Origin: a virus
Direction: 5' to 3' (one strand)
Virus record (IMG/VR): IMGVR_UViG_3300028840_002853
Location: 1 to 45,785 of that record
Length of the DNA: 45,785 nucleotides
The translations under genes and the position numbers were made by a program. Positions 21,677-41,418 of this stretch are shown here, in pieces. Below the pieces are notes generated by a model, which saw nothing but the letters and a program-made list of their open reading frames with translations, had not been told where the DNA came from and ran no database searches. Numbering within the stretch: the stretch's first letter is position 1; every line of letters begins with the position of its first letter.

Positions 21677-22660
21677 CTATCGGCCGCCGACCAAACCAGC
21701 TACGAACAACCGAGGCCGCTCGGCGACGCTCGGCAACATATCGCGGACCGAAGGCCGTTTGGTTTGTCGCGGATCGACGTATCTGCGCGTCACGGTCGCC
21801 GAGCTGTGCCCGCACTTCTCCTGCGCGACGACCAGACCATGACTCGACGCAACGCAAGTTGCAAATGTCTTCCGGATCTTGTGAAACAAGTCCTCTCGGC
21901 GATCGTAGGGCAAGCCTGCCGCTCTGAGGATCTTCCGATAGCGACGGCCGAGGGCCCTCCATGAATGGTCGCCTCGGTCGTATGGCCACTCCCCAAACAG
22001 AAGCCCGTCCGGATCTGGTTCGATCGCCGTTAAGGCCTCGACGGTCTCGTCCTGCAACTCGACCACGAGGTCGGCGCGGTCCTTCTGAACGTGGAAGTAA
22101 ATGGAAACGTAGCCGCCCTCGAAATCGACCCACTCCGTTCGGATCGCCATAACCGCCGAAATGCGCGCCCCGGTGTTCCAGATCGTCAGCAGCAAAGCGG
22201 GCCACCACGCCGAAGCGAGAACCGAGCCGACCCAGCCATCCGTCCGCCTCGATGTCGCAACAATCAAACGGAACTCGTCGATTGACCAGGCCTCTGGAAT
22301 CCGCTCCGGCTCGCGAAAGAACTCGGGCCGCGGCAAGGATTCGACGTAGCGCTTGCGGTGCGCATGCTTCCACTGGGCATAGAGCACGCGGCCTATCTTG
22401 TTGGCCGTCGCGGGCGTCACGCCGGCGGCGATCCGCTCGGCCATCGCGGCTTCGATGCGATCTTCCGACAAATCGGAGATCCGAGGTTCTCGCGGCGGCT
22501 GTCCGAGCCGCTCCAAATGAGCGCGGAACGATCTGCCAAAGTGTCGCAGTTGCACGCGGTAGTCGTCGTGCGTCGCGGGCGATCCGCCGACCATTGACGG
22601 CTTGTGCATGTAGACAGACTCGAAAAACTCCGAGAGCGTAGGGTCTGCGCAAGTAATCAT
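21677..22660 (-). CDS. int: Tyrosine integrase, 327 aa
   Basis: All six catalytic landmarks of the lambda integrase family are visible: R166 in NTGARISAV, K193 in VQKDRAD, H260 and R263 in FHKIRKT, H285 in KCGHSS and Y294 in TRRYVDP. The N-terminal 130 residues carry the SAM-like core-binding region. Start ATG at 22660 (MITCADPT). It should catalyse attP x attB recombination with the tRNA-derived site at 23329-23375. An upstream promoter lies at 23000-23028. The 3' end is followed in frame by another short ORF after TAG. Confidence 0.92.
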   Translation of the reverse strand: MITCADPTLSEFFESVYMHKPSMVGGSPATHDDYRVQLRHFGRSFRAHLERLGQPPREPRISDLSEDRIEAAMAERIAAGVTPATANKIGRVLYAQWKHAHRKRYVESLPRPEFFREPERIPEAWSIDEFRLIVATSRRTDGWVGSVLASAWWPALLLTIWNTGARISAVMAIRTEWVDFEGGYVSIYFHVQKDRADLVVELQDETVEALTAIEPDPDGLLFGEWPYDRGDHSWRALGRRYRKILRAAGLPYDRREDLFHKIRKTFATCVASSHGLVVAQEKCGHSSATVTRRYVDPRQTKRPSVRDMLPSVAERPRLFVAGLVGGR

Positions 22661-22980
22661 GGCAAGCGCCCCTGCGGCGCAGACGTCCGCTCCGGGCCTC
22701 CGTTGCTGGTTTGCGCTGCGGGTTGCCGTCCATGTCGGCAAGGTCCGTCTTGCGAAGCACGTTTACGAACCACTCGCGCAACGCGCTCCCCGGCGTAGAC
22801 CGGGGGCGCGGCTGCGCGAAACCGAGCAAACTAGCGGCCGGCTAAACGGCCCCAGGCGCAAAGCAAACTGCTTCGTGGAATCGGGGCTTACCGACCGGGC
22901 GGTGTATCAACCGCCCAGTCGCGGCCGCTTGGCTCAGAGGCGAGCTAAGAGGCGTGAGAGGTGCAGTTGATTCCTGCCTT

Positions 22981-24644: not shown

Positions 24645-24762
24645 TCCCTGCCCGCTGCATTCTGAGGACATCGATCTGCGGTTCTGGCTTGGCCAAACGG
24701 CTTTGTTACTTGCCCTCCGCCAAGAGCGCGCAGAACGGCGCAAGCGAGAACTAGCTCCGTGA
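24502..24762 (+). CDS. Small Trp/Cys protein, 86 aa
   Basis: ATG 24502. The protein has a CRSCSF knuckle and CPLHSED (possible metal site) with several Trp (FTIVWGWQPGD, DLRFWLGQTA) and a basic helical end (LRQERAERRKRELAP). No family recognised. Placed between the tRNA-like site and the SHD1 lipoprotein, in the rightward cargo group. Confidence 0.6.
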   Translation: MTLWRHVDHVQAQIERSAGLCRSCSFTIVWGWQPGDPLPRTVDLTSFDPCPLHSEDIDLRFWLGQTALLLALRQERAERRKRELAP

Positions 24763-24866
24763 GACTGGGCGAGGTTTCTGCGTGCCACGGCCATTCTGGC
24801 ATGGTAAGATGCGACGTCTGGGGACGAATAACGTATTGCGGGGCCATTGAAGATAGGGGGCATGTC

Positions 24867-25619
24867 ATGAAACGCAGTACGATCGCGGCGTTGGCGGTTG
24901 GCGTAGCGCTCGCCATTATGTGTCTGGCTTGCGGTACTGGCACGGTAACGACAAACACGAAGGGATCTAGCGCTGGCAGTTCGTCCACTGGGCACACAGC
25001 ATCAGGTAAGACAGAAACCGCAGCCAAGCCAGCGCGGCGCGGCGACGAAATTGACGCCTATGTGATGTCGCAGAAGTTCGTCAAGCGGCATCTCAACTAC
25101 CCGCATGATGCAAGCTTTCCGTGGGGTCCAACTTCTACGACCTACCTCGATGATTTGGATGCATGGCGCGTTGCAGCCACTGTCAAGGCCAAGAACGCTC
25201 TAGGAGGAACGCTCACGTACGAATGGGTCGCCATCGTCTACACAGATGATGATGTAAACTGGCAGTGTCATGCCGTCACGATCGATAGAAAGTTGGCCTA
25301 CGTCAGCGAGGTATACAAGTCCAAGTGTGCGGCGATCGTGGAGGAGGCCAAGAAGAAGGCAGAGCAGGCCGCAGCCAAACTTGCAGCAGAGGAGAAAGCC
25401 AAGGCCGATGCCGAAGCGAAAGCAGAACTGGAGGCACGAGTCGAAAGCAGGCGGCGCACCTGGACGGACACCAGCGGCGAGTTCACAATCGAGGCGGCAT
25501 TGCTCAGCAAGACACCTACCACAGTGACGCTGCAAAAAGAAGACGGAACGTCGATACAGGTCCCGATTGAGAAGCTGAGCGAGGTTGACAGAGACTATCT
25601 CAAGTCACTTGCAAAGTAG
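24867..25619 (+). CDS. Lipoprotein-like protein with C-terminal SHD1-type domain, 250 aa
   Basis: AGGGGG at 24855 precedes the ATG. An N-terminal signal ends in a probable lipobox (IMCLAC), then a low-complexity Ser/Thr linker, a globular middle (VMSQKFVKRHLNYPHDASFP), an Ala/Lys/Glu helix (EEAKKKAEQAAAKLAAEEKA) and a C-terminal ~50-residue module beginning RTWTDTSGEFTIEAALL and ending VPIEKLSEVDRDYLKSL. That end matches the SHD1 (Sla1 homology) modules typical of planctomycetes. Role unknown. It is a lysogenic-conversion candidate on the prophage edge. Confidence 0.75.
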   Translation: MKRSTIAALAVGVALAIMCLACGTGTVTTNTKGSSAGSSSTGHTASGKTETAAKPARRGDEIDAYVMSQKFVKRHLNYPHDASFPWGPTSTTYLDDLDAWRVAATVKAKNALGGTLTYEWVAIVYTDDDVNWQCHAVTIDRKLAYVSEVYKSKCAAIVEEAKKKAEQAAAKLAAEEKAKADAEAKAELEARVESRRRTWTDTSGEFTIEAALLSKTPTTVTLQKEDGTSIQVPIEKLSEVDRDYLKSLAK

Positions 25620-25656: not shown

Positions 25657-27690
25657 TCACGTGAATAGCTGCTTGACATTCGGAACCCATGAGGCGTCAA
25701 AATGATGGACCGCGAACGCGCCAGGATACTCGTGCTCCCAGTCAATCTCTTCCCGTTGATAGAAGTCCATCGGGAAGAAGAGCCGCGATTCAAGGATCCG
25801 ACAATCCCCGTAGCCGACCGCGCAGCTGTCGACAAGCCGCGGGCCTGTTTTCCATTGCCTCGGCGGATCCCAGCGATTGGGCAACTCCGCAACGATCCGC
25901 TCCATCAACGGATGACCGGCCTCCGCCCCGAAAACCCCGGCGCAACAGATTGCCTTGCCATTGGTCTCGTGGGCGACGACGAACGCATTGCATCCCGCCA
26001 GAAGCTCGTCAATGGCTCGTATTGGCCGGAAGTCTACGTCGAGATATACGCCGCCCATTGCGTGAACCGCCGCATGACGGATCGCGTCAGACTTCGCCGC
26101 GGGGTTTAGGGCTGTCTCATAGCATCGAAGCAAGTCCGGATAATGTTGCGCGAGAAACGCGCGAGCGTCCCGATCATTCCACCATCGATGCTCCCATTTC
26201 GAATGCAAGGCTTCCCAGCGTTCGATCCAATGCCTGAACACGTTCGGCATAGCTCGCCCGGTTTCATCCCAATACCGATGTTGGATTCGGGGAACTCCGG
26301 CATCGGGAAGCACTCGCGCCGGATCGCACAACCGGCAAGCCTCGGCGATCCGCTCAATGGGAACCGGACCCACCTTCGGCCCCGTCCATTGGTCGAATTG
26401 CCGCCGCGCGAGCGTGTCCAGTTCTTCGAGAGTCCGCCCCCAGATCGCCGGTTGCCCGTCGATTCCCGCTCCGGGCTGCGCGTGTCCACGCAACGTGTAG
26501 CTCCGCGCCAACGATCCGGCGGATCGCGTCACGTAGACCAGCGCCGCGCCGCGGCTCGCCAGGATCGGGGCCCACTTGTCAAGATTCAGCACGAACCGTG
26601 GGTCTTTGATGATCCAGGGCTGCGCCATCCGGTCGATCGCCCGCGCCGCCGCGTCCGCGTCGAATTCGCGAGTCGTCCGCCACTGCTCATTGATCTCCCG
26701 GACTTGGACCGATTCGGCGAACCGGTCGTCTGCGTCGTTAAGCCGCCAGCCCAGCTCCGCTAGCTGCCTCGTGATAGTTCGGGTCCCCGAATGACCGACC
26801 GCGAGAACGGCTACGTTCGGAAAACCCGGCCGCGGGTTTCCTTTCGGGGTCGCCCGGCGGACCGCCGGCCGACCGTCGATCTCGATGCGATCGATCCCGT
26901 AGTGGAGCGCCTGCAGTCTGTGAAACTCGGACGTCGCCGATCGGGCCTCGTTGTATTCGGCGAGCGATCGATCCTTGTGATGACGAACGACCGCGTCGGG
27001 AGCATACCCGACTCGCCAAACTGCGCCGAGCTTGAGCGCCCAGAACCAGGGAACATGCTCCATCAGCGCTAGTCGCTCGTCCCAAGGATTCGCCCGGAGC
27101 GTTTCCCGGCGCGCCACAAACCAATTCGCCCCGCACTCCGCCAGCCGGTACTTCGTCCCATGCGCGGTTAGGAGCCACTCGCCAGCCGGCTCGCTTAGGG
27201 TCATGACCCCGCGAAATAGATCCATCATGTACGAATAGTGGCAAACCTGTTTGTTTTCCTCCAGCGAGCCGCAAGCGAGCCCGACCCGTTCATCATTGGC
27301 GACCACGTCCAGCAATTGCGGAATCGCCCGGCCGTCGATGATCTCGAAGTCTTCCTCCATCATGCAGACAAACGGGGTTCGGCAGCGCTCGACTAGCCGA
27401 TTCCGGCCGGCGGACAAATTGCCTCCGGTGTCTTCCATGAGAACCGTCGCCCCGCGGCAATGGATTGCGATCGACTTGAGGAGCCGCTCCAGCGACTCGA
27501 GCCGCAGATAGTAGGTGATGCAGATCGTGACCAGCGACCAGTCGGCCGGATCATATTGGGGCGATCGTTGGGCGACCGGACCATTTGAGGAAATGAACGA
27601 AGCCGGCCGCCGGCAGATCCGGCAGAACACTCCGACCGGTTTGTATTCCCAATCGCATTGATGGGGCTCAAATGATGTCGGCGTCATCAT
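25657..27690 (-). CDS. Three-domain fusion: GT2-like, sulfotransferase-like and GT32-like glycosyltransferase, 677 aa
   Basis: Residues about 45-260 read as a family-2 glycosyltransferase (ICITYYLRLESLERLLKSI, acidic MMEEDFE near 111-116). Around 293-400 the sequence GHSGTRTITRQL and IIKDPRFVLN look like the P-loop and co-substrate regions of sulfotransferases. From about 468, IQHRYWDETGRAMPNVF and GGVYLDVDF (546-554) match GT32 (OCH1-type) enzymes with DXD. A Cys set at 12, 23 and 26 is a possible zinc site. It ends the tail cluster; it may modify host or virion glycans. A second sulfotransferase lies at 40840-41418. Confidence 0.7.
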   Translation of the reverse strand: MMTPTSFEPHQCDWEYKPVGVFCRICRRPASFISSNGPVAQRSPQYDPADWSLVTICITYYLRLESLERLLKSIAIHCRGATVLMEDTGGNLSAGRNRLVERCRTPFVCMMEEDFEIIDGRAIPQLLDVVANDERVGLACGSLEENKQVCHYSYMMDLFRGVMTLSEPAGEWLLTAHGTKYRLAECGANWFVARRETLRANPWDERLALMEHVPWFWALKLGAVWRVGYAPDAVVRHHKDRSLAEYNEARSATSEFHRLQALHYGIDRIEIDGRPAVRRATPKGNPRPGFPNVAVLAVGHSGTRTITRQLAELGWRLNDADDRFAESVQVREINEQWRTTREFDADAAARAIDRMAQPWIIKDPRFVLNLDKWAPILASRGAALVYVTRSAGSLARSYTLRGHAQPGAGIDGQPAIWGRTLEELDTLARRQFDQWTGPKVGPVPIERIAEACRLCDPARVLPDAGVPRIQHRYWDETGRAMPNVFRHWIERWEALHSKWEHRWWNDRDARAFLAQHYPDLLRCYETALNPAAKSDAIRHAAVHAMGGVYLDVDFRPIRAIDELLAGCNAFVVAHETNGKAICCAGVFGAEAGHPLMERIVAELPNRWDPPRQWKTGPRLVDSCAVGYGDCRILESRLFFPMDFYQREEIDWEHEYPGAFAVHHFDASWVPNVKQLFT

Positions 27691-28378
27691 AGGTCACGAT
27701 GCGGCAGAAGAACTCCGAGTTGTCGTAGGTCGGGCAATCTCCGCAACCGACCCCGCTCACAATGTTAGAATCCCCAGACAGGAACAGAAAGCCGGAACTC
27801 AGGCCTTCCACGGCAACGATAACGTTGCTGTTCGGGGCGGACCTCAGAAAAACACTGGTTCCCCCGTAGGTCAGATCGATCGTCGCCGTAAGCGAGTAGC
27901 GGGTTGTCTCAATCCCAGACGCGATGTTCGCCGCGCCTTCTTGGCAATCCCGGCCGCCCAGCAGTGAACAGCCCGCATCATACGAATCGTCCTTTAGTTG
28001 CATCCCGGCGCCCATCGACGTCAGGAATGCATTCAGCGCCGCCAGATCCCCCAGGCATCCGGAATACTCCCCCGACAGATAGCAACGTCCGCCCGCTTCG
28101 ATCCAAGACTTGATTGTCGCAAAGTCGCCGCTGTCGAAATGGATTGCGTTTTCGCAAGCCTGGTTGCAGCCCATAAACAGGACATCGCAGCCCGACAGGC
28201 TGCTAATATCGTCCTTCAGATTCAGCCGGACCTCGGCGCAGGGCATCCATTGAGAAATGCAGGCCCAAGCTGTGCGATCGTACCCGATGACCTTCGACTC
28301 GTGTCCGGCACAATCGCCGCCGCAACATTCGCAGGAGCAAGAACCTCTCTGCGGCGTAAACCATCGACCATCGCCCAT
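27668..28378 (-). CDS. Virion-associated protein with GATase-like fold, 236 aa
   Basis: An N-terminal Cys-rich patch (CSCECCGGDCAGHESK) is followed by a Rossmann-like region (GCDVLFMGCNQACENAIHFD, then IKSWIEAGGRCYLSGEYSGC). This resembles glutamine-amidotransferase-like (DUF4350-type) domains without an obvious catalytic triad. Between the tail gene at 28389 and the glycosyltransferase it is probably part of the distal tail. Function is inferred from position. Confidence 0.5.
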   Translation of the reverse strand: MGDGRWFTPQRGSCSCECCGGDCAGHESKVIGYDRTAWACISQWMPCAEVRLNLKDDISSLSGCDVLFMGCNQACENAIHFDSGDFATIKSWIEAGGRCYLSGEYSGCLGDLAALNAFLTSMGAGMQLKDDSYDAGCSLLGGRDCQEGAANIASGIETTRYSLTATIDLTYGGTSVFLRSAPNSNVIVAVEGLSSGFLFLSGDSNIVSGVGCGDCPTYDNSEFFCRIVTYDDADII

Positions 28379-28388: not shown

Positions 28389-29123
28389 CTAAGCTACATG
28401 GCAGGGCGCCTGGATGAAATGAAACGTGGAGCCCATCTGGACGCACCAGCCGGGATCGCCGTTTTCAAGATCGTCTTTCGCGATGTCGAGCCGATCGTAG
28501 ACATCGACGTCTTGACCAGTATCCGAGCCGTCGATGTTTAGAAGATCACAGTCCGCCGACGTGGGAGAGCCGCTAAACGCCTCGTTCATTGTGAACCGCC
28601 AGAGTTTAACAGCCTGGTTGCCGAGAAGCACGCGAGCCCACTTATCGCCAGTCCCCGACTCTTTCCACAGGATTCGCGCGGAGCCGGCCGTGAAGCTCCG
28701 CAGCGTATCGGTCGCCGTACCGTTGAGGTCCGCATACTCGTGATCTGCATCCTGGACATCGACTTGAACGTTGCAGACGCCCTGAACGAGCCCGCGGCCG
28801 ATTCGTCCCGAGGGGATCGACTCCAGCAGAACGACGAACTTGCCGAAATAGTCTGCGAACGTCGGCGATTCGCCCTGAAACTCCAAGGAATTTTTGAACG
28901 CTGTCAGATTGTCCGTCGGCGACCAGATAGGAGCGCCGAGTCCGAGAATCTCAAAGCGGCTCCGGTTAGCGCCGGAATCGTTGCGGATCCAGACAACGCC
29001 CGGCGCGAGGTCTCCATACTGAGAGGCGGCTTGCCCGCCGCCCCTGGAAGCTAGACTATCGATGAACGAGTTCCAGAGACTTGCCTGCGGGCGAAATCTC
29101 TGGCCCGGGCGCACTTTGGCCAC
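28389..29123 (-). CDS. Tail protein, 244 aa
   Basis: Starts RPGQRFRPQASLWNSFIDSL and contains beta-rich stretches (YFGKFVVLLESIPSGRIGRG, AGSARILWKESGTGDKWARV). It looks like proteins found after the tape measure cluster in planctomycete-type phages. No cofactor or enzymatic motif. Role as tail tip or baseplate component is inferred from synteny. Confidence 0.6.
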   Translation of the reverse strand: MAKVRPGQRFRPQASLWNSFIDSLASRGGGQAASQYGDLAPGVVWIRNDSGANRSRFEILGLGAPIWSPTDNLTAFKNSLEFQGESPTFADYFGKFVVLLESIPSGRIGRGLVQGVCNVQVDVQDADHEYADLNGTATDTLRSFTAGSARILWKESGTGDKWARVLLGNQAVKLWRFTMNEAFSGSPTSADCDLLNIDGSDTGQDVDVYDRLDIAKDDLENGDPGWCVQMGSTFHFIQAPCHVA

Positions 29124-29129
29124 GATCGC

Positions 29130-29792
29130 CTACCCCCGTGTATCGCACAACAGCTCGATCGATCCCAGCGCGCCGATGACGGCAGTTCCCGTAGCCGCAT
29201 CATTGACCGCGATCGCGATCCGGACCTCCAGCTTGTCCCCGGCAACTAGATCGGTCGGCGTGATCGTGAAATCCTTGTCCGCGAAGTTGGTGTTATTGAT
29301 GTCCTGAGCCCCGGTCGTGCACAGATCGGCGGAGATCCCGCCCTCGCGGTCCGATTCATAGGCTACGACGTCGATCGTGCAACTGTTATCCGCGACGGTC
29401 GTCACCATTCCGGCATGGAGGCGGATCGTTACCGTCTCGCCGTCCTCGTAGTTGGGCGGAAGCGGAACCTCCAATCCGCAATAGAACGTCAGAGCGCCGG
29501 CCGTTTTGACATCATAAGTGCGGACCAAAAGGCTGTCCGTTCCCCAGGTTCCGCAATAGAGTCCGAGATCATCATTCGCGCTCGGATTTGGCAAAAGCGT
29601 TTGAAACGCATTCCAGACGCGGCATTGCGTGAGCGGGATGTTGATTCGCGCGTTGGATCGTTGCGCGATCTTGCTCGTCGCAATGCCCGCATCGCTTTTG
29701 ACTTGATCGTTGCCGACAGCCGCGGAGGGGATCGTCATGGTGTCGGCGGACAGATGCCCCTTGACGTGTAGATTGTCGTTAAGCGTTCCCAC
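29130..29792 (-). CDS. Tail protein with coat-like beta structure, 220 aa
   Basis: Begins with an N-terminal repeat-like segment (LHVKGHLSADTMTIPSAAVG) of the kind seen at the start of phage structural proteins, then long beta-rich stretches. Ends LEVRIAIAVNDAATGTAVIG. No enzymatic motif. Tail fibre or neck-whisker type proteins look like this. The gene is six bases from the upstream tail gene. Confidence 0.6.
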   Translation of the reverse strand: MGTLNDNLHVKGHLSADTMTIPSAAVGNDQVKSDAGIATSKIAQRSNARINIPLTQCRVWNAFQTLLPNPSANDDLGLYCGTWGTDSLLVRTYDVKTAGALTFYCGLEVPLPPNYEDGETVTIRLHAGMVTTVADNSCTIDVVAYESDREGGISADLCTTGAQDINNTNFADKDFTITPTDLVAGDKLEVRIAIAVNDAATGTAVIGALGSIELLCDTRG

Positions 29793-29794
29793 GG

Positions 29795-30610
29795 CTATTC
29801 TCCGATTCCTAGTTCTGTAAAATCCGCAGTTTCGATTACCGTTTCAACGTAGGCCCCAATGGGGTTAGGGACTGTGAAGCTTGCCTCGTCATCTTCGGTT
29901 TTGGCATAGGCGAACCAGAGATACTGGCAGCCCAACTTCGATGAAATCGTAATGCCGCCGGTTTCCAAGTCCGTGATGTTTCGAGAAGCCTTGAAATGGA
30001 AAGTAACCGAGGCGTCGCCCTGCGTCTTTTCTTCTCCCGTTGCTCCCAAGAAGGTTAGCTCGCCGGCGTCGAAGCCTTTCCACGGCTCCGCGTTAGACTT
30101 GCCGGTCATACCCGCTACCGTTTTGGCGTAATCCATCGTCAAATCGCCAAACGGCATCCGATAGGTCCAGCTGAACTTGAGCCCGGGGGCGGGAATGTCG
30201 ACTCCAGCTATGCTATCGTTCGGTCCTACCCCGATCGCCCCTTGGTAATCTGGAGCGGTTTGCCCTGCAGGCGAGTATTTCGTGGTGTCGAGGCTCTGCG
30301 TCACATGCGCCGTTTCGCCCGTCGTATCGAAAGAAAAGCGAATATCTCCGGTGTCTGGAGTCTCAGGTTTGTCCTTCGAGGAATAGTTGCCTCTGCCGGC
30401 CCAGACATCCCCTCCAAGCGGATCGAGTTCCCAGGTCAGCAATGGCAGACCTCGAAACGACGCTGGCATTTCCACCAACAGGGCCGCCTCGATTTCGGAA
30501 TCATCGATCGAGCCGAAACCTACATATTCCAAGGTGGCGCTGGCGTCGGCACTCTTGAATCCTGCGCGGCGACGGCGACTTTCAGGGGTTTCGATCCAGA
30601 TGAAGCTCAT
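29795..30610 (-). CDS. Distal tail protein, 271 aa
   Basis: Follows the tape measure (four-base overlap), as the Dit protein does in many siphoviruses. Contains TWELDPLGGDVWAGRGNYSS, then FSWTYRMPFGDLTMDYAKTV, with mixed beta structure. No clear family call from sequence, so the Dit assignment is from position. Confidence 0.6.
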   Translation of the reverse strand: MSFIWIETPESRRRRAGFKSADASATLEYVGFGSIDDSEIEAALLVEMPASFRGLPLLTWELDPLGGDVWAGRGNYSSKDKPETPDTGDIRFSFDTTGETAHVTQSLDTTKYSPAGQTAPDYQGAIGVGPNDSIAGVDIPAPGLKFSWTYRMPFGDLTMDYAKTVAGMTGKSNAEPWKGFDAGELTFLGATGEEKTQGDASVTFHFKASRNITDLETGGITISSKLGCQYLWFAYAKTEDDEASFTVPNPIGAYVETVIETADFTELGIGE

Positions 30611-32391
30611 TCAAACACCAAGCCGCCTTCCGCTTCATCGACGGTTCGATTCAGTTTCTTCATTTCGCCGCTGATCTCTTGCAGCAGTTGGACTTGTTGA
30701 GAACCGCCGCGGCCAATCAGCCTTGCCGCGTAGGCGCTAAACGTTCCCCTGGAGCTGACCTGATCAACTGATTCCGCCGCGGATGGCACCGGCGGTTGCT
30801 CTCGCTCTTTGGATTTGCGCCGCTTGAGCTCCGCCTCGATCGCCTCGGTTCGCGCTTGGGTGATTGACTTGGCGAGCTGTTCGCGGAGCTTCGCCAGCTC
30901 GCGCTCATCAGCTTCAAATCCAGTGTCAGTCCGACGAGCTCGAGCCGCCGCTCGCTTCTGGCGATCTTTGTCCAATCGCCGGTTGCCTCGGGCGGTCTCC
31001 TGCTCCAAAGCCTGAATGGCCTCGCTCGGGTCGAACTCCTGAAGGAGTCCGAGCTTGGCGCTGATCTTGGAAATGATCCCCCACAGCTGGAGCATCTTCT
31101 TGGCCAGCCACCCGCTAACTGAGTTCCAGATTTGCCGCAGCTTCGTGATGGCCGCATCAAAAACGTTTAGGAAGCCCTCTGTAAACGGCCGCCAGACGGA
31201 CATGACCATCTGTTTGCCCTTGACGAAGGCCGTTTTGAGACCCAGCCAGAGAATTTTGGCGGCGAGCTGAATGTCGCCCGCGGAGAGGGCATCCTTGATG
31301 CCTTTGACGATCGGCATCACGAAGCCGAGAAGTCTTTGGAACTGCTGGCCAAGCCAGTCAAGCGCCGCCCCGCCGGCGTCTGTGTGGAAAAGCAGCGCGT
31401 AACCGAGACCCGCTACGGCGGCGACTAGGATGCCGGTCTGCGAAAACAAAGCCCCGAGGACGGTCCCTGCCACAGAAGCCAGCGTCGCCAACCCGCCGAG
31501 TCCGGCGCCAACGACGGCCAGCACGCCCGAGAGCCCGAGAATCGCCGCGCCGACTGCGGCGACGATTGCGCCCACTTTCGCGACTACAATGATCAACTGC
31601 TGATTGTTGCGAACCCATTCGATGAGCGGCGTGATGTTTTCCCGGATGCGTTTGGCCAAGTCGGTAAGCATCGGAGCCAGGGCGGCGCCAACGCGGAAAT
31701 AGACGGCTTTAATGCTGGTCTGGAGGCGAGTAAAGGCGTCAGTCAGCACAGCAGCGGCGTCGGCGTCGTCCTTGCTGATGACGATCCCGAGCGCCTCCGC
31801 TTCCGCCATCAAAGCCTGGATGCGGCCCGCTCCATCTTTGAGCATCGGCAACAGTTTGGTTCCAGCTCGCCCGAAGATCACAGTCGCGAGGGCGGCCTTT
31901 TGCGTGTTGTTTTCCATGCGCGAGAGAGCCGCGGCGCTCTCCATGAAAAGCATTTCCGTCGATTTCAGTTGACCGTCGGACCGTTTGACGCTCACGCCCA
32001 GTTGTCCGAAAGCCTCGGTGGCCGTGCTCAATCCGCGTGAAGCGTCGAAGGCAGTCCGCTGCATCCGTCGAAAGCCCACTTCCATGGCAGCGATGTCCGT
32101 TCCGCCGATCTGGGCGGCGTGGCCCAAAGCCGAGAGAAACTCGACGGACGCGCCGACGCGGCTGCTCATCTTGTCCAGGGCGTCGCCTGCGGATGCGAAA
32201 TACTTGACCGCCCCGGCCAGGGGCCCAACGATGGCGGCCCCAACCCCCGCGATCTTGGTCCCGATGCCGCGGACCGTGCCCGAGTAGGCCACCATTTGCT
32301 GGCTGGCTCGCCGCAGCCCTCCGGCGACCCTGTTGCGCAAGTACAGCTCGATGAAGGCTCGGCCCGCCCGAATGTCGCTTCCACCAGCCAT
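30607..32391 (-). CDS. Tail tape measure protein, 594 aa
   Basis: Long, helical, with an N-terminal RIELYLRNRVAGGLRRAS-type start and a central hydrophobic stretch (VGAIVAAVGAAILGLSGVLA) that could cross the host membrane during DNA entry. The C-terminal third is charged (AIEAELKRRKSKEREQPPVP). At about 1.5 angstroms per residue it predicts a tail of roughly 90 nm. Its start abuts the T-type chaperone and its stop overlaps the next tail gene. Confidence 0.9.
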   Translation of the reverse strand: MAGGSDIRAGRAFIELYLRNRVAGGLRRASQQMVAYSGTVRGIGTKIAGVGAAIVGPLAGAVKYFASAGDALDKMSSRVGASVEFLSALGHAAQIGGTDIAAMEVGFRRMQRTAFDASRGLSTATEAFGQLGVSVKRSDGQLKSTEMLFMESAAALSRMENNTQKAALATVIFGRAGTKLLPMLKDGAGRIQALMAEAEALGIVISKDDADAAAVLTDAFTRLQTSIKAVYFRVGAALAPMLTDLAKRIRENITPLIEWVRNNQQLIIVVAKVGAIVAAVGAAILGLSGVLAVVGAGLGGLATLASVAGTVLGALFSQTGILVAAVAGLGYALLFHTDAGGAALDWLGQQFQRLLGFVMPIVKGIKDALSAGDIQLAAKILWLGLKTAFVKGKQMVMSVWRPFTEGFLNVFDAAITKLRQIWNSVSGWLAKKMLQLWGIISKISAKLGLLQEFDPSEAIQALEQETARGNRRLDKDRQKRAAARARRTDTGFEADERELAKLREQLAKSITQARTEAIEAELKRRKSKEREQPPVPSAAESVDQVSSRGTFSAYAARLIGRGGSQQVQLLQEISGEMKKLNRTVDEAEGGLVFE

Positions 32392-32604
32392 CTAGCGTTG
32401 CTTTTCGAACAAGGGTTTGAGGGATCGCAATTGCGCCCCGGTCATGCCGCCGCGGCGGCGTCTTGCGTTTCTGGCGAACTGCGGCGGCAGGAAATCGGTG
32501 ACGCGATACCGGCGGCTTTTCTTGGGATCGCGGTTGATATTCGCCAAGAGCGTCATCAGATGCGCCGTATGGGTCCACGCGCCCTCTTGGTTGCCGGAAT
32601 ACAT
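32392..32604 (-). CDS. Tail assembly chaperone T-type ORF, 70 aa (downstream of frameshift)
   Basis: The frame is open further upstream than its first ATG: before MYSGNQ it continues with RIYEIAGVIGIDPGPLTFRE, a clear match to the T part of G/T chaperones. It lies in the -1 frame relative to the G gene and overlaps the end of it. So the native product is probably a G-T fusion made by -1 frameshifting, with no canonical X-XXY-YYZ heptamer seen near the G stop at 32640. T proteins bind the tape measure. Confidence 0.75.
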   Translation of the reverse strand: MYSGNQEGAWTHTAHLMTLLANINRDPKKSRRYRVTDFLPPQFARNARRRRGGMTGAQLRSLKPLFEKQR

Positions 32605-32639
32605 CCAGAGCAGCTCGCGGAAAGTCAGGGGGCCTGGAT

Positions 32640-33128
32640 CTATTCCGATGACTCCGGCGATTTCGTAGATTCGTCTCCAGATAAACGCGCTAGTTCCTCG
32701 ATCAGTTTCGCATCCGCCGTTTCGATCTGATGGGCCACGACCCGCTGCAGATCGCTCTCCGTCATCCGGCGGCCCGCGACGTCCTGAATCTTCGTCTCCG
32801 CGTCCAGCACCGCTCGCGCTATCCTCGCCTGGGCGGTCAGGCCCAGGCTCTGGAAAAAATCCGCCAACTCCTCCAAAAAGGCCGTCTGGGCGGCGTCATA
32901 GCAGGGCGTCAACATGGCGGCGAATTCAACGTCGCCGACGCCCCGTTCATCGGCCTGCGGCTTGCAAATGAGGTAGATCGCGTCGACCGTCTCGATGATC
33001 TGGCTGGCCAACCCTTGCAGCCGCGCATCATCGAACAGATCGACGCCCTGATTGCGGAGCTGCTTGGCGATTGCCAGATTGAGCTCCAGCTTCCAGTCGC
33101 GGCCGTCGCCGTCCTTAAACGTCCTCAT
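32640..33128 (-). CDS. Tail assembly chaperone G-type protein, 162 aa
   Basis: Length, position before the tape measure and composition (RTFKDGDGRDWKLELNLAIA, then AKLIEELARLSGDESTKSPE) fit gpG-like proteins. It is followed in the -1 frame by a T reading frame. As in lambda, G is made in excess over G-T. No enzymatic motif. Confidence 0.75.
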   Translation of the reverse strand: MRTFKDGDGRDWKLELNLAIAKQLRNQGVDLFDDARLQGLASQIIETVDAIYLICKPQADERGVGDVEFAAMLTPCYDAAQTAFLEELADFFQSLGLTAQARIARAVLDAETKIQDVAGRRMTESDLQRVVAHQIETADAKLIEELARLSGDESTKSPESSE

Positions 33129-33267
33129 CGCTAAGGGCCTCCGTGCTCTCGGTCTCTCCGTCGATGGCCTCGAGAACCGTTAGGAGGTCCTCGCGGCGGA
33201 TGCTGATGAATTCGCTTAGCCCCGCCGCTTCGACCGCGGCTTTGAGCCGCTCGAGTTTCTCATTCAT
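33115..33267 (-). CDS. 50-aa microprotein before chaperone G
   Basis: ATG 33267, stop TAA at 33115, so it overlaps the start of the G gene (33128). The peptide is acidic and helical (NEKLERLKAAVEAAGLSEFI, then SIRREDLLTVLEAIDGETES). Protein-like composition supports it; the ribosome site is weak. It would be translated in phase with the tail operon. Role unknown. Confidence 0.5.
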   Translation of the reverse strand: MNEKLERLKAAVEAAGLSEFISIRREDLLTVLEAIDGETESTEALSDEDV

Positions 33268-33307
33268 TTGTGGCCCGTTATCCGTTTTGGAAAGAGGCTA
33301 ATACCCG

Positions 33308-33778
33308 TTAGGGCACGGTGTACCAGTCGGGCGGGACGAGGGAGCCAGAGGTCTCCTGGTACGTCGCTTTGGCCACGAATTCCACCTCTTCGGTGTCTTC
33401 CAATTCCTGACTCAGCGACATATCGAACAGTTGGAAGTAGCCACGGATGCCTTGGGCGTTGGATTCGTCGCTGGCGCCATCGAGCATCCACAGATCAACC
33501 ACCGTGTTGGCGATCGCGGCGGCTCGCAGATAGTCAAAGACGGTATCCGTCCCGGCCTTCTTGTCGTAGGTGAACGTGATCTCCAGCTCGCGAAGCGTCG
33601 CCCGTTTGAACTTCCAAACGCTGAACCTGGAAGCGATTTCCGCTTCGCCTTCGGGCATGTTCATATTGACATTGATGGCCCGGGTGATCTCGACAAGAAC
33701 GGGCGTTGTTCGGTCGCCCGTGTTGTAGTAGAGATTGCACTCTTGCCCAACAAATGGCCGTTCCGCAACGTCTGCCAT
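33308..33778 (-). CDS. Major tail tube protein, 156 aa
   Basis: The chain is compact and beta-rich, typical of gpV-like tail tube proteins: VGQECNLYYNTGDRTTPVLV near the start and VEITRAINVNMN, then a long WKFKRATLRELEITFTYDKK segment and a short C-terminal strand. Length and place, just before the chaperone/tape measure genes, fit well. The tube polymerises around the tape measure. Confidence 0.85.
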   Translation of the reverse strand: MADVAERPFVGQECNLYYNTGDRTTPVLVEITRAINVNMNMPEGEAEIASRFSVWKFKRATLRELEITFTYDKKAGTDTVFDYLRAAAIANTVVDLWMLDGASDESNAQGIRGYFQLFDMSLSQELEDTEEVEFVAKATYQETSGSLVPPDWYTVP

Positions 33779-33810
33779 GACTTATTCCTCCCTCCGTGGA
33801 GTGTTCTGTT

Positions 33811-34209
33811 TCAGGGACCGATGATTGAACCCTTCCAATGGCGGCCCAGCCGCGGCGCTGATGTCTCGAGGGCTGGTCCCATAAACGAGCGCTGCGGAAA
33901 CCTCTGGCCTTTGTACTGGCCGCCGTGTTCATGCGCCGCACCCGCTGTCCCCACCACCGACGCCCGCGGGCCAATGATCGCCCTTTCTCGCCGTTTATCG
34001 ACGTCGAACACAATCGCCTTGCGCAACAGGCCCGCCCTGGTCCGCGGCGGCTGACCCGGTGGCGAGGGCTTTGTTTTCGAGCGGCGGATCAACCGCATTG
34101 CAGCGCGACGGATGGAGGCTGCTGCGTGGCCAATAGAGTTGAAGTTCCCCTTCTTGGCCGCCCGCTTCACGCGGTGTGTTTCGTCTTTCCAGGTCCAGCG
34201 TCGAAACAT
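33811..34209 (-). CDS. Tail completion protein (HK97 gp10-like), 132 aa
   Basis: Basic N-terminus (RRWTWKDETHRVKRAAKKGN), a GLLRKAIVFDVDKRRERAII strand pair and the ending HEHGGQYKGQRFPQRSFMGP are like gp10-type tail/neck proteins, which finish the tail for joining. Placed between the tail tube and terminator. The stop overlaps the terminator start. Confidence 0.7.
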   Translation of the reverse strand: MFRRWTWKDETHRVKRAAKKGNFNSIGHAAASIRRAAMRLIRRSKTKPSPPGQPPRTRAGLLRKAIVFDVDKRRERAIIGPRASVVGTAGAAHEHGGQYKGQRFPQRSFMGPALETSAPRLGRHWKGSIIGP

Positions 34210-34697
34210 TAGCTCGCCGTCTTTTGCGCTTCGTAGGTCACACGAACGACACCGGTAAATTGCCGATGTTCCTGCAAGTGTTCTGGGTGAAATGGGACGG
34301 GGATTACCGCCGATTTCCAGGCAGCCGGCGGCGTGCTTGCCAGGCCCCGCCGTGATTTGGCGGCGACGTATTCGACGATTTCCTCCAACAGCAGCACAAG
34401 CGGGTCAATGGACGTATTGGGGACGCGGCCCGTATCGGCGTCGGCGTCGGCGACGCCGAACTTCTTTCTGATGGCGACGTCGACTTCGCAAAGATAGTCC
34501 AGCCCGACGCGGCTCCTCAGTTCTGGCGTTGTAGCGGCAATCACCACGTCACAATGCAGCGTGTCGAGGTCCTGCAGCACCTCGGTTGTGTCGTATCCGC
34601 GGACTGGCGTGATGTCGGTCGAGAACGCTTCGGCGTCTTGCCCCGCTTGGAGCAAGTCCTTCAGCTTCTCGGCAACGCTGACAACCACAGCAGCCAT
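34209..34697 (-). CDS. Tail terminator-like protein, 162 aa
   Basis: A short protein with a beta-rich stretch (DVVIAATTPELRSRVGLDYL, then EVDVAIRKKFG) and helices, directly after the head-tail joining gene. Tail terminators of lambda gpU type have this size, position and mixed build. No catalytic motif. The assignment leans on synteny. Confidence 0.65.
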   Translation of the reverse strand: MAAVVVSVAEKLKDLLQAGQDAEAFSTDITPVRGYDTTEVLQDLDTLHCDVVIAATTPELRSRVGLDYLCEVDVAIRKKFGVADADADTGRVPNTSIDPLVLLLEEIVEYVAAKSRRGLASTPPAAWKSAVIPVPFHPEHLQEHRQFTGVVRVTYEAQKTAS

Positions 34698-34700
34698 TGA

Positions 34701-35081
34701 CTATTCGGTCCCGACGAACTTCGTGTGAACGACCCAGCTTCCGCCGTTGACATCGACCCACTCGTAAACATCGCGGGCGCCAGCCCGCCGCATGACTTCA
34801 AACACGTGCACCGTTCCGCCGATTGTCTCCTTGATCCGGTCGCCCTGACGCGGCGTTACGGTTTCCGAATCGATGACCAGCTCGGAAGCGGCGATCAGGT
34901 AACTACGCGGACGGTTCGCAACGGCCGTGTTTTCGACCTCTGACCCATCGTGTCCCATCGTGACGACTTCGGCAGTCGGCTCGCAGTAGTTCACGGCTCC
35001 CCGCCAATACTCGACGTCTACGCCGAACACCTCGGCGAACAGGTCATCGGCGGCGGCGAAATCATCATCGAACTCGGACAT
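34701..35081 (-). CDS. Head-tail joining protein, 126 aa
   Basis: Begins MSEFDDDFAAADDLFAEVFG followed by a beta-rich core (VSYLIAASELVIDSETVTPR-like, VHVFEVMRRAG). This layout is that of the small FII-like joining or stopper proteins. It lies after the decoration gene and its hairpin. The gene ends with a stop two bases before the terminator start. Confidence 0.7.
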   Translation of the reverse strand: MSEFDDDFAAADDLFAEVFGVDVEYWRGAVNYCEPTAEVVTMGHDGSEVENTAVANRPRSYLIAASELVIDSETVTPRQGDRIKETIGGTVHVFEVMRRAGARDVYEWVDVNGGSWVVHTKFVGTE

Positions 35082-35092
35082 TGCAAACCCAA

Positions 35093-35127
35093 CCGCCGCA
35101 GCGCCGACCCAATCGGCGCTGCGGCGG
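35093..35127. terminator. Strong hairpin after the decoration gene
   Basis: CCGCCGCAGCGCCGA (35093-35107) pairs perfectly over 15 bases with 35113-35127, loop CCCAA. It lies between the decoration gene and the joining gene. A U-rich tail is only weak on the minus strand, so a partial terminator reducing expression after capsid genes is the likely role. Confidence 0.6.
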
Positions 35128-35149
35128 ACATTTCATCGGAAATCGCCGT

Positions 35150-36118
35150 CTAGGCTTCGACGTCGGTCGTCAGCCGCACCTCCATCTTGTGGAGCGTTGC
35201 CTTACCGGCGGTGTCGTTGGCCGTTTTCTCCAGGTGGAACAGAGCCTTGAGCGGCCCTGTGCCGTCCTCGAGCGTGAACGTCGTCGAGCCCAGCACCAAC
35301 GCGCCGTTGACGTAAATTTGGATGTCCGTCTCGTCGCGGCCGTCGATGGCAACGTGAATCGGAGTACCGGCGACGATATCCACGGTGGTATCCGTCGCCG
35401 CAACCTCGGTCGTGCCATCGTCGGATTCGGCGTCAATGTTGAGATCCGCACCGAGATCCAAATGGATGAAACAGGACTCGGTGATGCTGTCCGCCGACGT
35501 CGCATGCGTATCGTTGGCAACCCCTAGACTCAAATCGCCGACGTCCGCATCGCACGTCGTAACGAGCTCAAGAACGCCCTCGAAAATCCAGTTCGAGTCG
35601 ATGGCGAACGACTTCCGCGACAGCAGATCAAATTTCTGCGCCTCGGCGTCCGCCGAGAAGGCGCAGTCGTAAGAGCCGCCTCGCATGCCGTGATCCGTAA
35701 GTCCGGCCGTTCGGACATGGGCCGAGTCAAAGCCATCCTTTTGCAGCGTGATATACGCCGAATCCTTGGGCGCATTGATCTCGACGACCATCGTCGTATC
35801 GGCGGAGGCGGCGTCCCCGACGGCCCGACCGAGGTAGAAATCCTTGCTCGTGCCATAGAGGGGGATCGTCGCCGAATTGGCGCTGTGATCCCACATCACT
35901 TCACCGCCGTCGAGGATCACGATGCTCGCCGTTTTGGCGACCGTGAACTGTCCGGAGGTGGCCAGGGCGGCGCTATCGCCCGCCGAGCGAGCGGCCAGTC
36001 CGAGAACGACCGCGGCGCGGCCGTCCGCCAACTGAAGCACTTGACCGGCCGAGTAACCCCCGGTCGGCGTGGTCACCGCGACGTGCGCGGCCGAGTTGCT
36101 GATTGTTGCTTCTGCCAT
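35150..36118 (-). CDS. Cap decoration / head fibre-like protein (DUF2190-type N-terminus), 322 aa
   Basis: The start (GGYSAGQVLQLADGRAAVVL, then VILDGGEVMWDHSANSATIP) is of the DUF2190 type, small coat proteins that stabilise phage capsids, here extended by a beta-rich ~200-residue lectin-like domain (SYDCAFSADAEAQKFDLLSR and onward). So it is a decoration protein with a head-fibre domain. It follows the capsid gene directly. Confidence 0.75.
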   Translation of the reverse strand: MAEATISNSAAHVAVTTPTGGYSAGQVLQLADGRAAVVLGLAARSAGDSAALATSGQFTVAKTASIVILDGGEVMWDHSANSATIPLYGTSKDFYLGRAVGDAASADTTMVVEINAPKDSAYITLQKDGFDSAHVRTAGLTDHGMRGGSYDCAFSADAEAQKFDLLSRKSFAIDSNWIFEGVLELVTTCDADVGDLSLGVANDTHATSADSITESCFIHLDLGADLNIDAESDDGTTEVAATDTTVDIVAGTPIHVAIDGRDETDIQIYVNGALVLGSTTFTLEDGTGPLKALFHLEKTANDTAGKATLHKMEVRLTTDVEA

Positions 36119-36186
36119 TTTCTGAAACTCCGCTTGGGAAACTGAGGGTTACGGGTGACGCGTCACTCCGCCGATGAGGGTGTCTG

Positions 36187-38454
36187 CTAGGCGGCGCCGG
36201 TGGACTTGTACCAGGTCCGCCAATCCACGAAGACGGCACCGATGTCCAGGTTGATATCCCAGCCCAGGCCCCACTGACCCTTATCCAGCGTGAAGCTCCG
36301 CAGCTGGGGCTGGCGGTTTGTGCCGCGGCGGTAGGCGACCCGCAAGCCGCGATTGGGACCGCTGGTCAGGAACCAGTTTGTGTCGACGCCGGTTCGCGCC
36401 GCGCCGTTGCGAGGATCGAGGACGCCGATAGCGCCGACGCGATCATCGATGACAACCGCCAGACCTTCCTGCGCAATCAGGTTGAGCGCCGCGTACCAGG
36501 GGTCGCTCGAGTCGGCGAACAGCTTCGCGAGCGCCGCGGCCGACGTAAGGGCTCGGGCGTCCCATTCCAGAGCCGCCGGGACGATCAAGAACCGCGGTCG
36601 GATCTGCAGCTGCTGGCCCGGGTTGGCGCTGGTGCGGTTGAGCCGCTGCTTGACCATGGCCGTGATGCCGGCCTTGAGCGCCGTATTGGAAAGCGCCGCC
36701 GTCCCCAGATTGGCGTGTCCGCCTGATGTCGTGACGGCCGTCGAGTTGAAGACGGCGCCGCTGTCGGCGACCATCGTCGGGTTTTCCAGGATCAGCGAGT
36801 AGATCAGGTCCGGCCGCAGATTCCTGGCGGATTGGCCCATCTCGGCCGGCATCCGCATGATGGCGCCCAGCCGATCGTCGATGATGTCCTGCTCGTCGAC
36901 CGTGAACTTCTTGGCGTAGCGAGCGATCTTGTACGTCTCGTGCGTATCGCTCACCGTGGCGTCTTTGGCCGTCCCGCCCCGGGGCAGGGTCTCGAGCCGG
37001 GCGCTGGCCTGCAGGCTGATGTCTTCCTGCTGCAGGAAGTTGGCAACATCCTCCTCATCGCACCAGCCGGCTGTTGTGTCTCCGATCTGCGTCCAGCCCT
37101 CAAGCAGCTTGGCGTAGACGTTGGTAGTGAAGACGTAGGACAACGTGCCGCCGCTTACCGTGGCGGCTCGGATGGCCTCGTCCGGATCCCAATAGAGCCG
37201 CCCCGTATCCTGCCGGGCGCACTCCCGAACCAAGTCCAGCGCCGACATCCGTCGGAATGGGTGGCCCCGGTCACAGTCCTCGGCCGTCAGCTCATCGCTC
37301 GCCAACGGCATCCGCAGGCCGTCGTGCATCCGCGAATGAGCCTGAACCGGGTCGATGCCCTGGCCGATCAACAAGCCAGCCGCCAGCGATCGGACCGAAG
37401 CGCCGGCGATGGAGCGATCCTGCGCCGTGTGATGGTAGGGCGTCTGCTGATCGGTTTCAGCTTGTCGCGATTGGCGGACGGCGCCCAAGAAGGCCACCGA
37501 GGCGCGATTGATGTCCCATCCCTCGTCAATGGCCTGTTGCCGCAGGGCGGCCGGCACGTCCTCGCCCGCCAATTGCGTGAGCTCTCGCACGCGCTCCCGT
37601 TCTTGCTCGACGGCTTCCTGGGCGATTTGTCGTGCGTCCGGATCTTGGTTTTCCGACCGCTGCGGCTCGGGCGAGCTCCGCCCCTCGCCGGCCGGCGGCG
37701 GAGAGTTCTGCGGAGGGGAGTTGCGCTTGGGAAGCTCGTAACCGTCGATCGTCGAAGCCAAGCGATCGGCTTCGGCCCGCTGATCTCCGTCGAGCTGTGC
37801 GTGAAATGTCCGCAGCGCTTGATCATCGGCGTTCGCCGCGAGCCCGATACTCAGAAGATATTGTCGTAGTTCGTCCATGAACTTGCTCCTATGGGAAGAC
37901 GAACGCGTTTTTGCCGCAGCGTCGGCGCCGATCGGCACAACTGATGTTTCCTTGGGCGACCAGCGGGCCACAATCCGCATGTTGCGCTTCCGCGCCTTGA
38001 ACTCGCGCCCGGCCACGGTCGCCTTTTGACCCGCCGCGATAATGTGTGATTTGTCCTGATCGACGCGGTAGCCGACGCTCACGTCTGTAAGATGGCCTTG
38101 GGAGACCTTGTTCCAGGCCCGCTCCGCCGCCTCGTCCCCCTTGGCGAAGAACAGACGGCCGACCAGCTGCTCCCCGCCTCCTTTGGCCTCTTCGATGCGG
38201 ATCTCGCGGACGCTCCCGAGGACTTGATCGAGATTCCAGCGGTTGTGCGAAGCCAAGAGCGGCAATTGCTCTGGGATATCCGCCCCGCGAGCGAGCAAGA
38301 CCTCCTCGATGATTTCGCCGCTTCGCCAGTCGTAGACCTCCACGGGGTTTTCCGTGGCGATCACGGCCTCGACGGAGCGCTCCTCTTCATTGGCCGAAGC
38401 GATGCGAAGCAACAGGCTCCGCGTCGTGAGCTGTTGCGGATCGTTGCGAAGCAT
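36187..38454 (-). CDS. Prohead protease / major capsid protein fusion, 755 aa
   Basis: Residues about 1-190 are like HK97-type prohead proteases (SVEAVIATENPVEVYDWRSG, LLASHNRW, ETSVVPIGADA). A linker of ~150 residues rich in charged helices works as scaffold (QEAVEQERERVRELTQLAGE). From about 330 on the sequence is a Mu gpT-type capsid fold (YHHTAQDRSIAGASVRSLAA, GTLSYVFTTNVYAKLLEGWT). Translation as one chain replaces separate protease, scaffold and coat genes. I chose ATG 38454, eight bases after the portal stop. Confidence 0.85.
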   Translation of the reverse strand: MLRNDPQQLTTRSLLLRIASANEEERSVEAVIATENPVEVYDWRSGEIIEEVLLARGADIPEQLPLLASHNRWNLDQVLGSVREIRIEEAKGGGEQLVGRLFFAKGDEAAERAWNKVSQGHLTDVSVGYRVDQDKSHIIAAGQKATVAGREFKARKRNMRIVARWSPKETSVVPIGADAAAKTRSSSHRSKFMDELRQYLLSIGLAANADDQALRTFHAQLDGDQRAEADRLASTIDGYELPKRNSPPQNSPPPAGEGRSSPEPQRSENQDPDARQIAQEAVEQERERVRELTQLAGEDVPAALRQQAIDEGWDINRASVAFLGAVRQSRQAETDQQTPYHHTAQDRSIAGASVRSLAAGLLIGQGIDPVQAHSRMHDGLRMPLASDELTAEDCDRGHPFRRMSALDLVRECARQDTGRLYWDPDEAIRAATVSGGTLSYVFTTNVYAKLLEGWTQIGDTTAGWCDEEDVANFLQQEDISLQASARLETLPRGGTAKDATVSDTHETYKIARYAKKFTVDEQDIIDDRLGAIMRMPAEMGQSARNLRPDLIYSLILENPTMVADSGAVFNSTAVTTSGGHANLGTAALSNTALKAGITAMVKQRLNRTSANPGQQLQIRPRFLIVPAALEWDARALTSAAALAKLFADSSDPWYAALNLIAQEGLAVVIDDRVGAIGVLDPRNGAARTGVDTNWFLTSGPNRGLRVAYRRGTNRQPQLRSFTLDKGQWGLGWDINLDIGAVFVDWRTWYKSTGAA

Positions 38455-38461
38455 GAGCGGA

Positions 38462-40364: not shown

Positions 40365-40847
40365 TCAACTTTCCTGGACCCGCTGAATGTCTTTGCGCGG
40401 CATCTTGAAGCGATACTGGCACGCCTTGCAGCTGTAATACCGCACGGTCGCACGGGTTGAGGTCACGCGCACGCTATCGCTTCCGCAGTCGGGGCAAGCG
40501 ATCGGGCGGAGTTTGGGGGCGCCGTTGCCGCTTCGCGGGGTTTCGATGACCGGGGCTTGATAGTCGACCGGCGGGGGAATGGGCGTCTCAACAACCGGCG
40601 GCGATTGGATGGCTGGCGGCGGAATCTCCGCCGGCGGAAGATCGGCGGGAAGTTCGGAGAAGTGAAAGACGAGCCCGCAGAAGCCACAGCGAGCCCGCCC
40701 GCGATCAAACCACGATGTTCGCCCGTAGTGCTTCTGGGCCTCGCTCATGGCGTCGCTGGCCGCCGTGGGCGACGGAGGGCGCTCGAGGATCTCGCTATCT
40801 TGGCAGCCGCAGCGGGGACACTCCGGCCCATCGCACCGTTCAAGCAT
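40365..40847 (-). CDS. Two-zinc-ribbon protein, 160 aa
   Basis: Two cysteine pairs at the N-terminus (ECPRCGCQDSE, then RCGFCGLVF), a Pro-rich linker (PPAEIPPPAIQSPPVVETPI) and two more (CPDCGSDSVRV, CKACQYRFK) suggest two zinc ribbons, the last like transposon/IS-type or transcription-associated ribbons. ATG overlaps the sulfotransferase stop. Function not known; might be a packaging-linked nucleic-acid binder. Confidence 0.65.
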   Translation of the reverse strand: MLERCDGPECPRCGCQDSEILERPPSPTAASDAMSEAQKHYGRTSWFDRGRARCGFCGLVFHFSELPADLPPAEIPPPAIQSPPVVETPIPPPVDYQAPVIETPRSGNGAPKLRPIACPDCGSDSVRVTSTRATVRYYSCKACQYRFKMPRKDIQRVQES

Positions 40848-41418
40848 GGCGGTCCCCCCGATCGGTGAGGCTCCGCCACAACTCGACGTCGCAGCTGTAG
40901 AGCGAATGCACGAGGTCCCGAGTCGGTTTGTCGTAGTATGCTTGGACGGATCGATGACGGGCGGAAGCGTTGACGTGCGGAAGGCGCCGCGGCTCGATCT
41001 CCAGCTCTCTGGCGATCCGCACAAGCTCCGCCTGTAGCCGATCGTGACGGAGCAATTCGACGCTAGATCGGCCGTCGAGCCAAGCGCGTTGTTCCGAGGC
41101 GATGTGCAAACCATGGGGGCTCCGCCATCCATTGATGTGCACGCCCCGAGGCTCGTCTGTGATCGAGGGCGGGCAGCCCAGCCGGACCCAATCGCGGAAG
41201 TCCGCCGGCGAGAGCCGGCGGCCGTAGGTTGCGCAGAGATAGGCGCAGATCGAAACGGCCCTGTCGAATGGATCGCGGAGAATCGAAAACAACCGAACTT
41301 CCGGCGAAAACGCATGCGCTGGCGTGTGAGGGGCGCCGGGCTCGGTCCCTTGCCGGCCGAGGGCGGTCGTCAGTGAGGATCCGCCAGTTCGTGGAATGTG
41401 AACGAATCGCCAGCGCAT
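40840..41418 (-). CDS. Sulfotransferase family protein, 192 aa
   Basis: HIPRTGGSSL (residues 7-16) is the 5'-phosphosulfate-binding loop, and LRDPFDRAVS (47-56) the 3'-phosphate motif of PAPS-dependent sulfotransferases. It would transfer sulfate from PAPS to a carbohydrate or other acceptor. It sits in the packaging cluster, coupled on both sides: TGATG with the 34-aa gene before it and an ATGCTTGA overlap after. Together with the GT fusion (25657-27690) it hints at glycan sulfation by the phage. Confidence 0.8.
   Translation of the reverse strand: MRWRFVHIPRTGGSSLTTALGRQGTEPGAPHTPAHAFSPEVRLFSILRDPFDRAVSICAYLCATYGRRLSPADFRDWVRLGCPPSITDEPRGVHINGWRSPHGLHIASEQRAWLDGRSSVELLRHDRLQAELVRIARELEIEPRRLPHVNASARHRSVQAYYDKPTRDLVHSLYSCDVELWRSLTDRGDRHA

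Follow-up and report, generated by a model that had tools for sequence, protein, structure and literature searches.

A Predicted GT2–Sulfotransferase-like–GT32 Fusion Gene Closing the Tail Cluster of a Virus with Probable Planctomycete Hosts

The window, that is, the whole stretch of 45,785 nucleotides analyzed here, is a virus record (IMGVR_UViG_3300028840_002853) with TerL, major head/protease, and integrase genes (Table 1). The last gene of its tail cluster, at the integrase-proximal end, encodes P0001, a fusion of glycosyltransferase (GT) and sulfotransferase-like (ST) domains. A scan restricted to sigma-70-type sites gave no sigma-70-like promoter match between P0001 and the preceding tail gene, whose end overlaps the start of P0001 by 23 nucleotides; both features are consistent with co-expression of P0001 with the tail genes. 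On the other side lies a convergent gene whose product has an SHD1 domain (Pfam E 4.9e-14), possibly a cargo gene expressed in the lysogen. In the nearest relative, L013, the upstream genes are present and the slot holds no GT or ST gene. The fusion gene is thus an optional cargo and P0001 is dispensable for tail assembly.

Table 1. Positions of the features discussed in the text (residue numbers refer to P0001; positions with an L prefix refer to other records).
Feature	Position	Strand	Remarks
P0001, GT2–sulfotransferase-like–GT32 fusion	25657..27690	-	677 aa, ATG start
Cys/His cluster	27613..27663	-	residues 10-26, zinc-finger-like by eye
GT2/GT12-like domain	26875..27534	-	residues 53-272
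EED	27349..27357	-	residues 112-114, acidic metal-binding motif of the GT2 domain, conserved across the family
EH	27055..27060	-	residues 211-212, conserved; putative GT2 catalytic site
Sulfotransferase-like domain	26302..26832	-	residues 287-463
GHSGT	26782..26796	-	residues 299-303, 5'-phosphosulfate-binding-loop position, His replacing Arg/Lys
KDPR	26596..26607	-	residues 362-365
R389-x7-S397	26500..26526	-	3'-phosphate-binding signature
GT32 domain	25660..26295	-	residues 466-677, by Pfam PF04488 and alignment
DVD	26032..26040	-	residues 551-553, intact GT32 DXD motif
Integrase	21677-22741		
SHD1-domain gene	24759-25619	+	convergent with the fusion gene
Upstream tail-cluster gene	27668..28378	-	overlaps P0001; the L013 record has a homolog-like gene in this position
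Tail genes T28, T29, T30 and tape-measure gene	28389..32391	-	upstream of the fusion
Tape measure	30607-32391		
Major head/protease protein	36187-38508		
Separate sulfotransferase-like gene	40840..41418	-	phrog_3347 Galactose-3-O-sulfotransferase, E 2.5e-8
TerL	41621-43891		
ST-GT2 fusion (reversed order) and overlapping GT32 gene	L195:2022-3878 and 1414-2025	-	in a capsid relative
GT25+Sulfotransfer_3 fusions	L070:9497-10828, L071:10034-11353, L087, L111, L131, L142		tail modules of related phages/prophages

An earlier note, made from the letters alone, had described the 677-residue reading frame and its place within the tail cluster, and the present analysis bears out both. The plus strand of the interval is riddled with stops. 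In 200 base-shuffled copies of the window, the longest stop-free run is 462 codons (mean 271), so that the 677 codons of P0001 exceed chance, and homology further confirms that the frame is coding. The protein lacks a membrane segment, its highest 19-residue hydropathy being 1.0. Short Cys-rich, zinc-finger-like patches such as the one at its N-terminus are also found at the N-terminus of the related proteins P0002, L170, and L175, and at the C-terminus of L153, L162, and L166; the patches that end GT2-ST proteins resemble those in adjoining tail genes.

The three-domain assignment of the earlier note is supported for each segment, by somewhat different routes. The GT32 part is recognized directly by Pfam (Gly_transf_sug, PF04488, residues 483-565, E 2.2e-12, 47.9 bits against a cut-off of 23), and its DXD motif lies within the GGvYxDxD context, as GGVYLDVD at residues 546-553. 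Matches of P0001 on plasmids are confined to this part, and the bacterial relatives are mostly 23-33% identical. A derivation from neighboring phage GT32 genes was considered and not upheld, P0001 forming a long branch in a tree without resolution.

The GT2 assignment, weak from P0001 alone, is strong via its relatives. The Pfam scores of this part of P0001 fall below the cut-offs (17.8 vs 27 and 16.4 vs 23.3 bits, E 0.0035-0.009), while the homolog in L153 lies above that of Glycos_transf_2 (28.4 vs 23.3 bits, E 1.8e-6). P0002, a protein of 555 residues that came from searching 294 genomes, all from the phylum of a planctomycete host, in six frames, is 32% identical to P0001 across 434 residues that span the GT2 and middle parts; it has no GT32 part, and its contig also carries TerL-like and portal-like genes. 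P0001 additionally matches the structure of the β-1,4 N-acetylgalactosaminyltransferase 1 B4GALNT1 (PDB 9h6j, E 0.0019), best at residues 89-243, and has the EED and EH motifs in common with the GT2/GT12-like transferases (Glycos_transf_2). Between D-x-G and SxxRN, P0001 has a much shorter interval than most GT2 relatives. The idea of a broken GT2 part was nevertheless dropped, because the interval is equally shortened in L174:706-2151.

The middle domain of P0001 has no Pfam match of its own, and Sulfotransfer_3 accordingly found nothing when run directly against the window. Within its family, 5 of 14 members match Sulfotransfer_3 (PF13469), with a best E of 1.9e-9. In the alignment of these 14 sequences, K-D-P is invariant and the following R nearly so, whereas GHSGT and R-x7-S are each present in most members. 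The Walker A lysine is absent. The loop that would bind the 5'-phosphosulfate is canonical (APRTGTS) in the stand-alone relative L176, as opposed to the His found in most fused members. Fold models cover the middle domain. The one built from the 14 sequences (pLDDT 89.2, pTM 0.84) is of sulfotransferase or P-loop type and gave Foldseek matches in the PDB to the kinase 2rhm (3.1e-3), the curacin sulfotransferase 4gbm (3.3e-3), and the estrogen sulfotransferase 1hy3 (3.8e-3), together with several SULT1 structures and further kinases. The two sulfotransferases have a probability of 0.99, with P-loop kinases at similarly weak E-values; an earlier model built from 4 sequences gave mainly kinases. 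An hhalign comparison with the GT25-linked sulfotransferase domain has a probability of 79. The sulfotransferase assignment is thus supported, not proven, and the domain is probably a minimal sulfotransferase in which His takes the place of the Arg/Lys of the 5'-phosphosulfate loop. As to the PAPS-site residues that the earlier note had proposed to check, the 3'-phosphate signature R389-x7-S397 is present and the Arg/Lys of the loop is not.

The window contains another gene of this kind, located between the zinc-ribbon and TerL genes, with the canonical motifs HIPRTGGSS and RDPFDRAVS. These motifs and the phrog_3347 match mean that the window has two different sulfotransferase-like genes, and the two potential sulfation activities of the earlier note are supported at the level of sequence. 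Apart from the identical contig L002, L013 is the only one of the capsid-relative loci searched that has a homolog of the second gene. L002 (IMGVR_UViG_3300017971_007920) is identical to window positions 28389-45711; its ends coincide with gene borders, and it stops immediately short of the final two genes of the tail cluster, as though it had been cut there.

A search of viral contigs with the middle domain yielded 15 loci, some of them duplicated by loci L153-L156, and all except L176 are GT2+ST fusions. Besides the window, approximately 13 other distinct viral or prophage sequences carry GT2 and ST in one reading frame. In a tree of these proteins P0001 is a divergent member of unsure placement. 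In L153, L154, L155, L162, L163, L166, L170, and L175 the tape-measure gene is followed within a few genes by the fusion, the PHROG tape-measure match in this setting having an E of 3e-57 and the call in L175 being based on position and a flanking homolog. In L162 and L163 a homolog of a trypsin-like protein of the window is found downstream of GT2-ST; in the window this protein and a virion structural protein with an arabinofuranosidase-B-like match are encoded at 2185-3117 and 712-1608 (-), respectively.

Related combinations recur with other parts and orders. In L172, L173, and L174 the GT2-ST fusion is followed by GT2 and/or GT32, colinear with P0001. The record of the capsid relative L018 has, at its tail end, a fusion in the reversed order, ST-GT2, that overlaps a GT32 gene by 4 nucleotides. 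The tail loci collected with T30 show recurrent stand-alone GT32 genes and GT25+Sulfotransfer_3 fusions (E 1.5e-17), and of the 39 such loci that extend 3.5 kb or more downstream, a count that includes redundant loci, 16 contain a modeled GT or ST domain. One further tail-module frame, L093:7161-8549, has GT2/GT7-type and radical SAM Pfam matches with weak to borderline scores. GT2+sulfotransferase is a recurrent phage architecture, and the description of the fusion as rarely combined fails for this pair, which has GT25+ST and ST+GT2 counterparts as well; it holds for the added C-terminal GT32, unique to the window among the sequences searched. Among 50,697 phage records there was no whole-protein relative of P0001, and peptide patterns likewise brought up none from viral contigs, the collection scans using degenerate patterns by which relatives will be missed; the complete GT2-ST-GT32 chain was met only here among the collections searched. 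Because the tails of relatives hold varied GT and ST modules and L013 holds none, this position resembles a cargo site at which such modules are exchanged.

The capsid relatives in genomes come mostly from Planctomycetota MAGs (Planctomycetaceae, Phycisphaerae, Gemmatales), along with one Sumerlaeota MAG and one other bacterium. The host of the virus is probably a member of the Planctomycetota, an assignment that is probable rather than certain because MAG contigs may be mis-binned.

On the basis of these features, we tentatively propose, with somewhat less than even confidence, that P0001 is a late cytosolic enzyme that makes a sulfated glycan on the virion, presumably on its tail. The GT2/GT12-like module would transfer the first sugar, the minimal PAPS-dependent sulfotransferase module would sulfate it, and the GT32 module would add a further sugar via its DXD site. 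Since the fusion gene and the late tail genes probably share a transcript, the acceptor would most likely be a tail or tail-tip protein made simultaneously, and the product would be a sulfated glycan displayed by the virion. The lack of both a membrane segment and a sigma-70-like promoter match fits a late cytosolic enzyme and thereby favors a virion acceptor. We infer the catalytic activity, the order of the steps, the use of PAPS by the middle module, and the virion acceptor; the stepwise building of a sulfated surface glycan that the earlier note had envisaged is a reasonable inference. Counting against this proposal are the integrase-proximal position, the absence from the nearest relative, the His in the phosphosulfate loop, and Foldseek E-values of about 3e-3 that P-loop kinases reach as well.

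Very Ser/Thr-rich proteins, with up to 90% S+T per 60 residues, occur in the tail modules of relatives (L070:7491-9521, L071:8151-10037, L093, L080, and L086) and are possible glycan acceptors there. This idea was not used for P0001: such proteins are common in relatives, the tail proteins of the window include no Ser/Thr-rich acceptor, and in the relatives their presence shows no correlation with the GT genes detected (p 0.27). Planctomycetes are known to degrade sulfated polysaccharides, and one can imagine that fast-shuffling GT-ST fusions coat the tails of their phages with a sulfated glycan that mimics the polysaccharide food of the host and serves as an adhesion ligand. We regard this extension as very improbable.

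A different target would be the host itself. In lysogenic conversion or superinfection exclusion, P0001 would glycosylate and sulfate the precursor of an envelope polysaccharide, such that related phages no longer adsorb or the progeny escape the debris. The integrase-proximal end of a tail cluster is a classic place for lysogenic-conversion genes, and the phage does have an integrase, with the fusion gene lying between it and the tail genes. At the same place a related prophage has a homolog of polysaccharide pyruvyl transferase, a surface-polysaccharide type of enzyme. Because the gene is optional, being absent from L013, and its phage probably a temperate one, this explanation stays serious, and we consider it a real possibility, albeit one we rather doubt. 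What speaks against it is that the overlapping start and the missing promoter match suggest expression with the late tail genes, that P0001 has no membrane segment and no gtr-type membrane partner was noticed adjoining its gene, and that GT2-ST stays in the tail module across several apparently independent phage groups. Whichever surface is modified, the reshuffled GT and ST parts of the relatives suggest that viruses of this group produce a coat of sulfated sugar, be it for their hosts or for their own tails.

Two further explanations concern the chemistry. The middle domain could be another, kinase-like P-loop enzyme, or a dead relative of the sulfotransferases retained for binding or as a scaffold, as might be thought from its own lack of a Pfam match, the kinases that Foldseek scores as well as sulfotransferases, the His of the fused family, and an hhalign probability that stops at 79. 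We find this unlikely, given the Sulfotransfer_3 matches of the relatives, the absent Walker A lysine, the R-x7-S and KDPR motifs kept in most members, and the canonical loop of L176. Alternatively, P0001 could glycosylate and sulfate a modified base in hypermodified phage DNA. GT- and sulfotransferase-based base modification has been proposed for phages (Iyer et al. 2013, cited in PMC10829341), and the window has several DNA methyltransferase genes. The GT and ST genes, however, lie in tail modules and not beside replication genes, and neither of the partner enzymes was found in the window or in the records of its relatives, many of them fragmentary, be it a base-oxidizing Tet_JBP (PF12851, for which the positive control was weak) or a hydroxymethylating thymidylate-synthase/hydroxymethylase (PF00303, for which the controls were detected). 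This explanation has therefore little support, and we give it hardly any credence.

Phage glycosyltransferases are already known and sulfotransferases occur in phages; here the two are found as recurrent fusions within tail modules. In the open literature, to which the search was limited, we found no published description of phage GT-sulfotransferase fusions, and the named phages in the collection include no GT2-ST fusion. When the phage collection was searched with GT2-ST of L153, only the GT2 part was matched, in 184 Salinibacter phage records. One of these is L181:6977-8095 (Salinibacter phage 4_2_43) and the remaining 183 are likewise of Salinibacter M8 phages; this relative is annotated as hypothetical. 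In the two phages examined it closely follows a gene matching major head proteins. Fusions with different GT families and domain orders point to sulfated glycans as a testable phage trait, and part of the idea is testable now because these Salinibacter phages are cultured and have the related GT2 near the major head gene.

It is instructive to compare P0001 with the known systems. With the PAPS sulfotransferases (4gbm, 1hy3) and Sulfotransfer_3 it shares KDPR and R-x7-S; members of its family match Sulfotransfer_3, and the fold model matches the sulfotransferases at E-values that kinases reach as well. Those enzymes have approximately 285 residues and R/K in the phosphosulfate loop, whereas the domain of P0001 has approximately 180 and GHSGT. 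The DXD region is in common with the Gly_transf_sug/OCH1-like GT32 enzymes, from which P0001 differs by its fusion to GT2-ST. Serotype-conversion gtr operons, which occur in temperate phages, are likewise optional glycosyltransferase cargo of a temperate phage. The gtr clusters, however, have a membrane GT with GtrA/GtrB-like partners, while P0001 has no membrane segment, no such partner was noticed beside its gene, and its neighbors are tail genes, the gene lying at the end of the cluster with an overlapping start. A parallel for a glycosylated virion is found in the mycobacteriophage Che8 and its relatives, whose virions are glycosylated by phage-encoded glycosyltransferases (Freeman et al. 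2023, cited in PMC11256854 and PMC12619734), with glycans reported on capsid and tail-tube proteins (summarized in PMC12619734). Phage-encoded glycosyltransferases are thus common to both systems. The corresponding passages of the two sources do not mention sulfation, and P0001 differs in joining a glycosyltransferase, a sulfotransferase-like domain, and a GT32 domain in one chain and in its probable planctomycete hosts.
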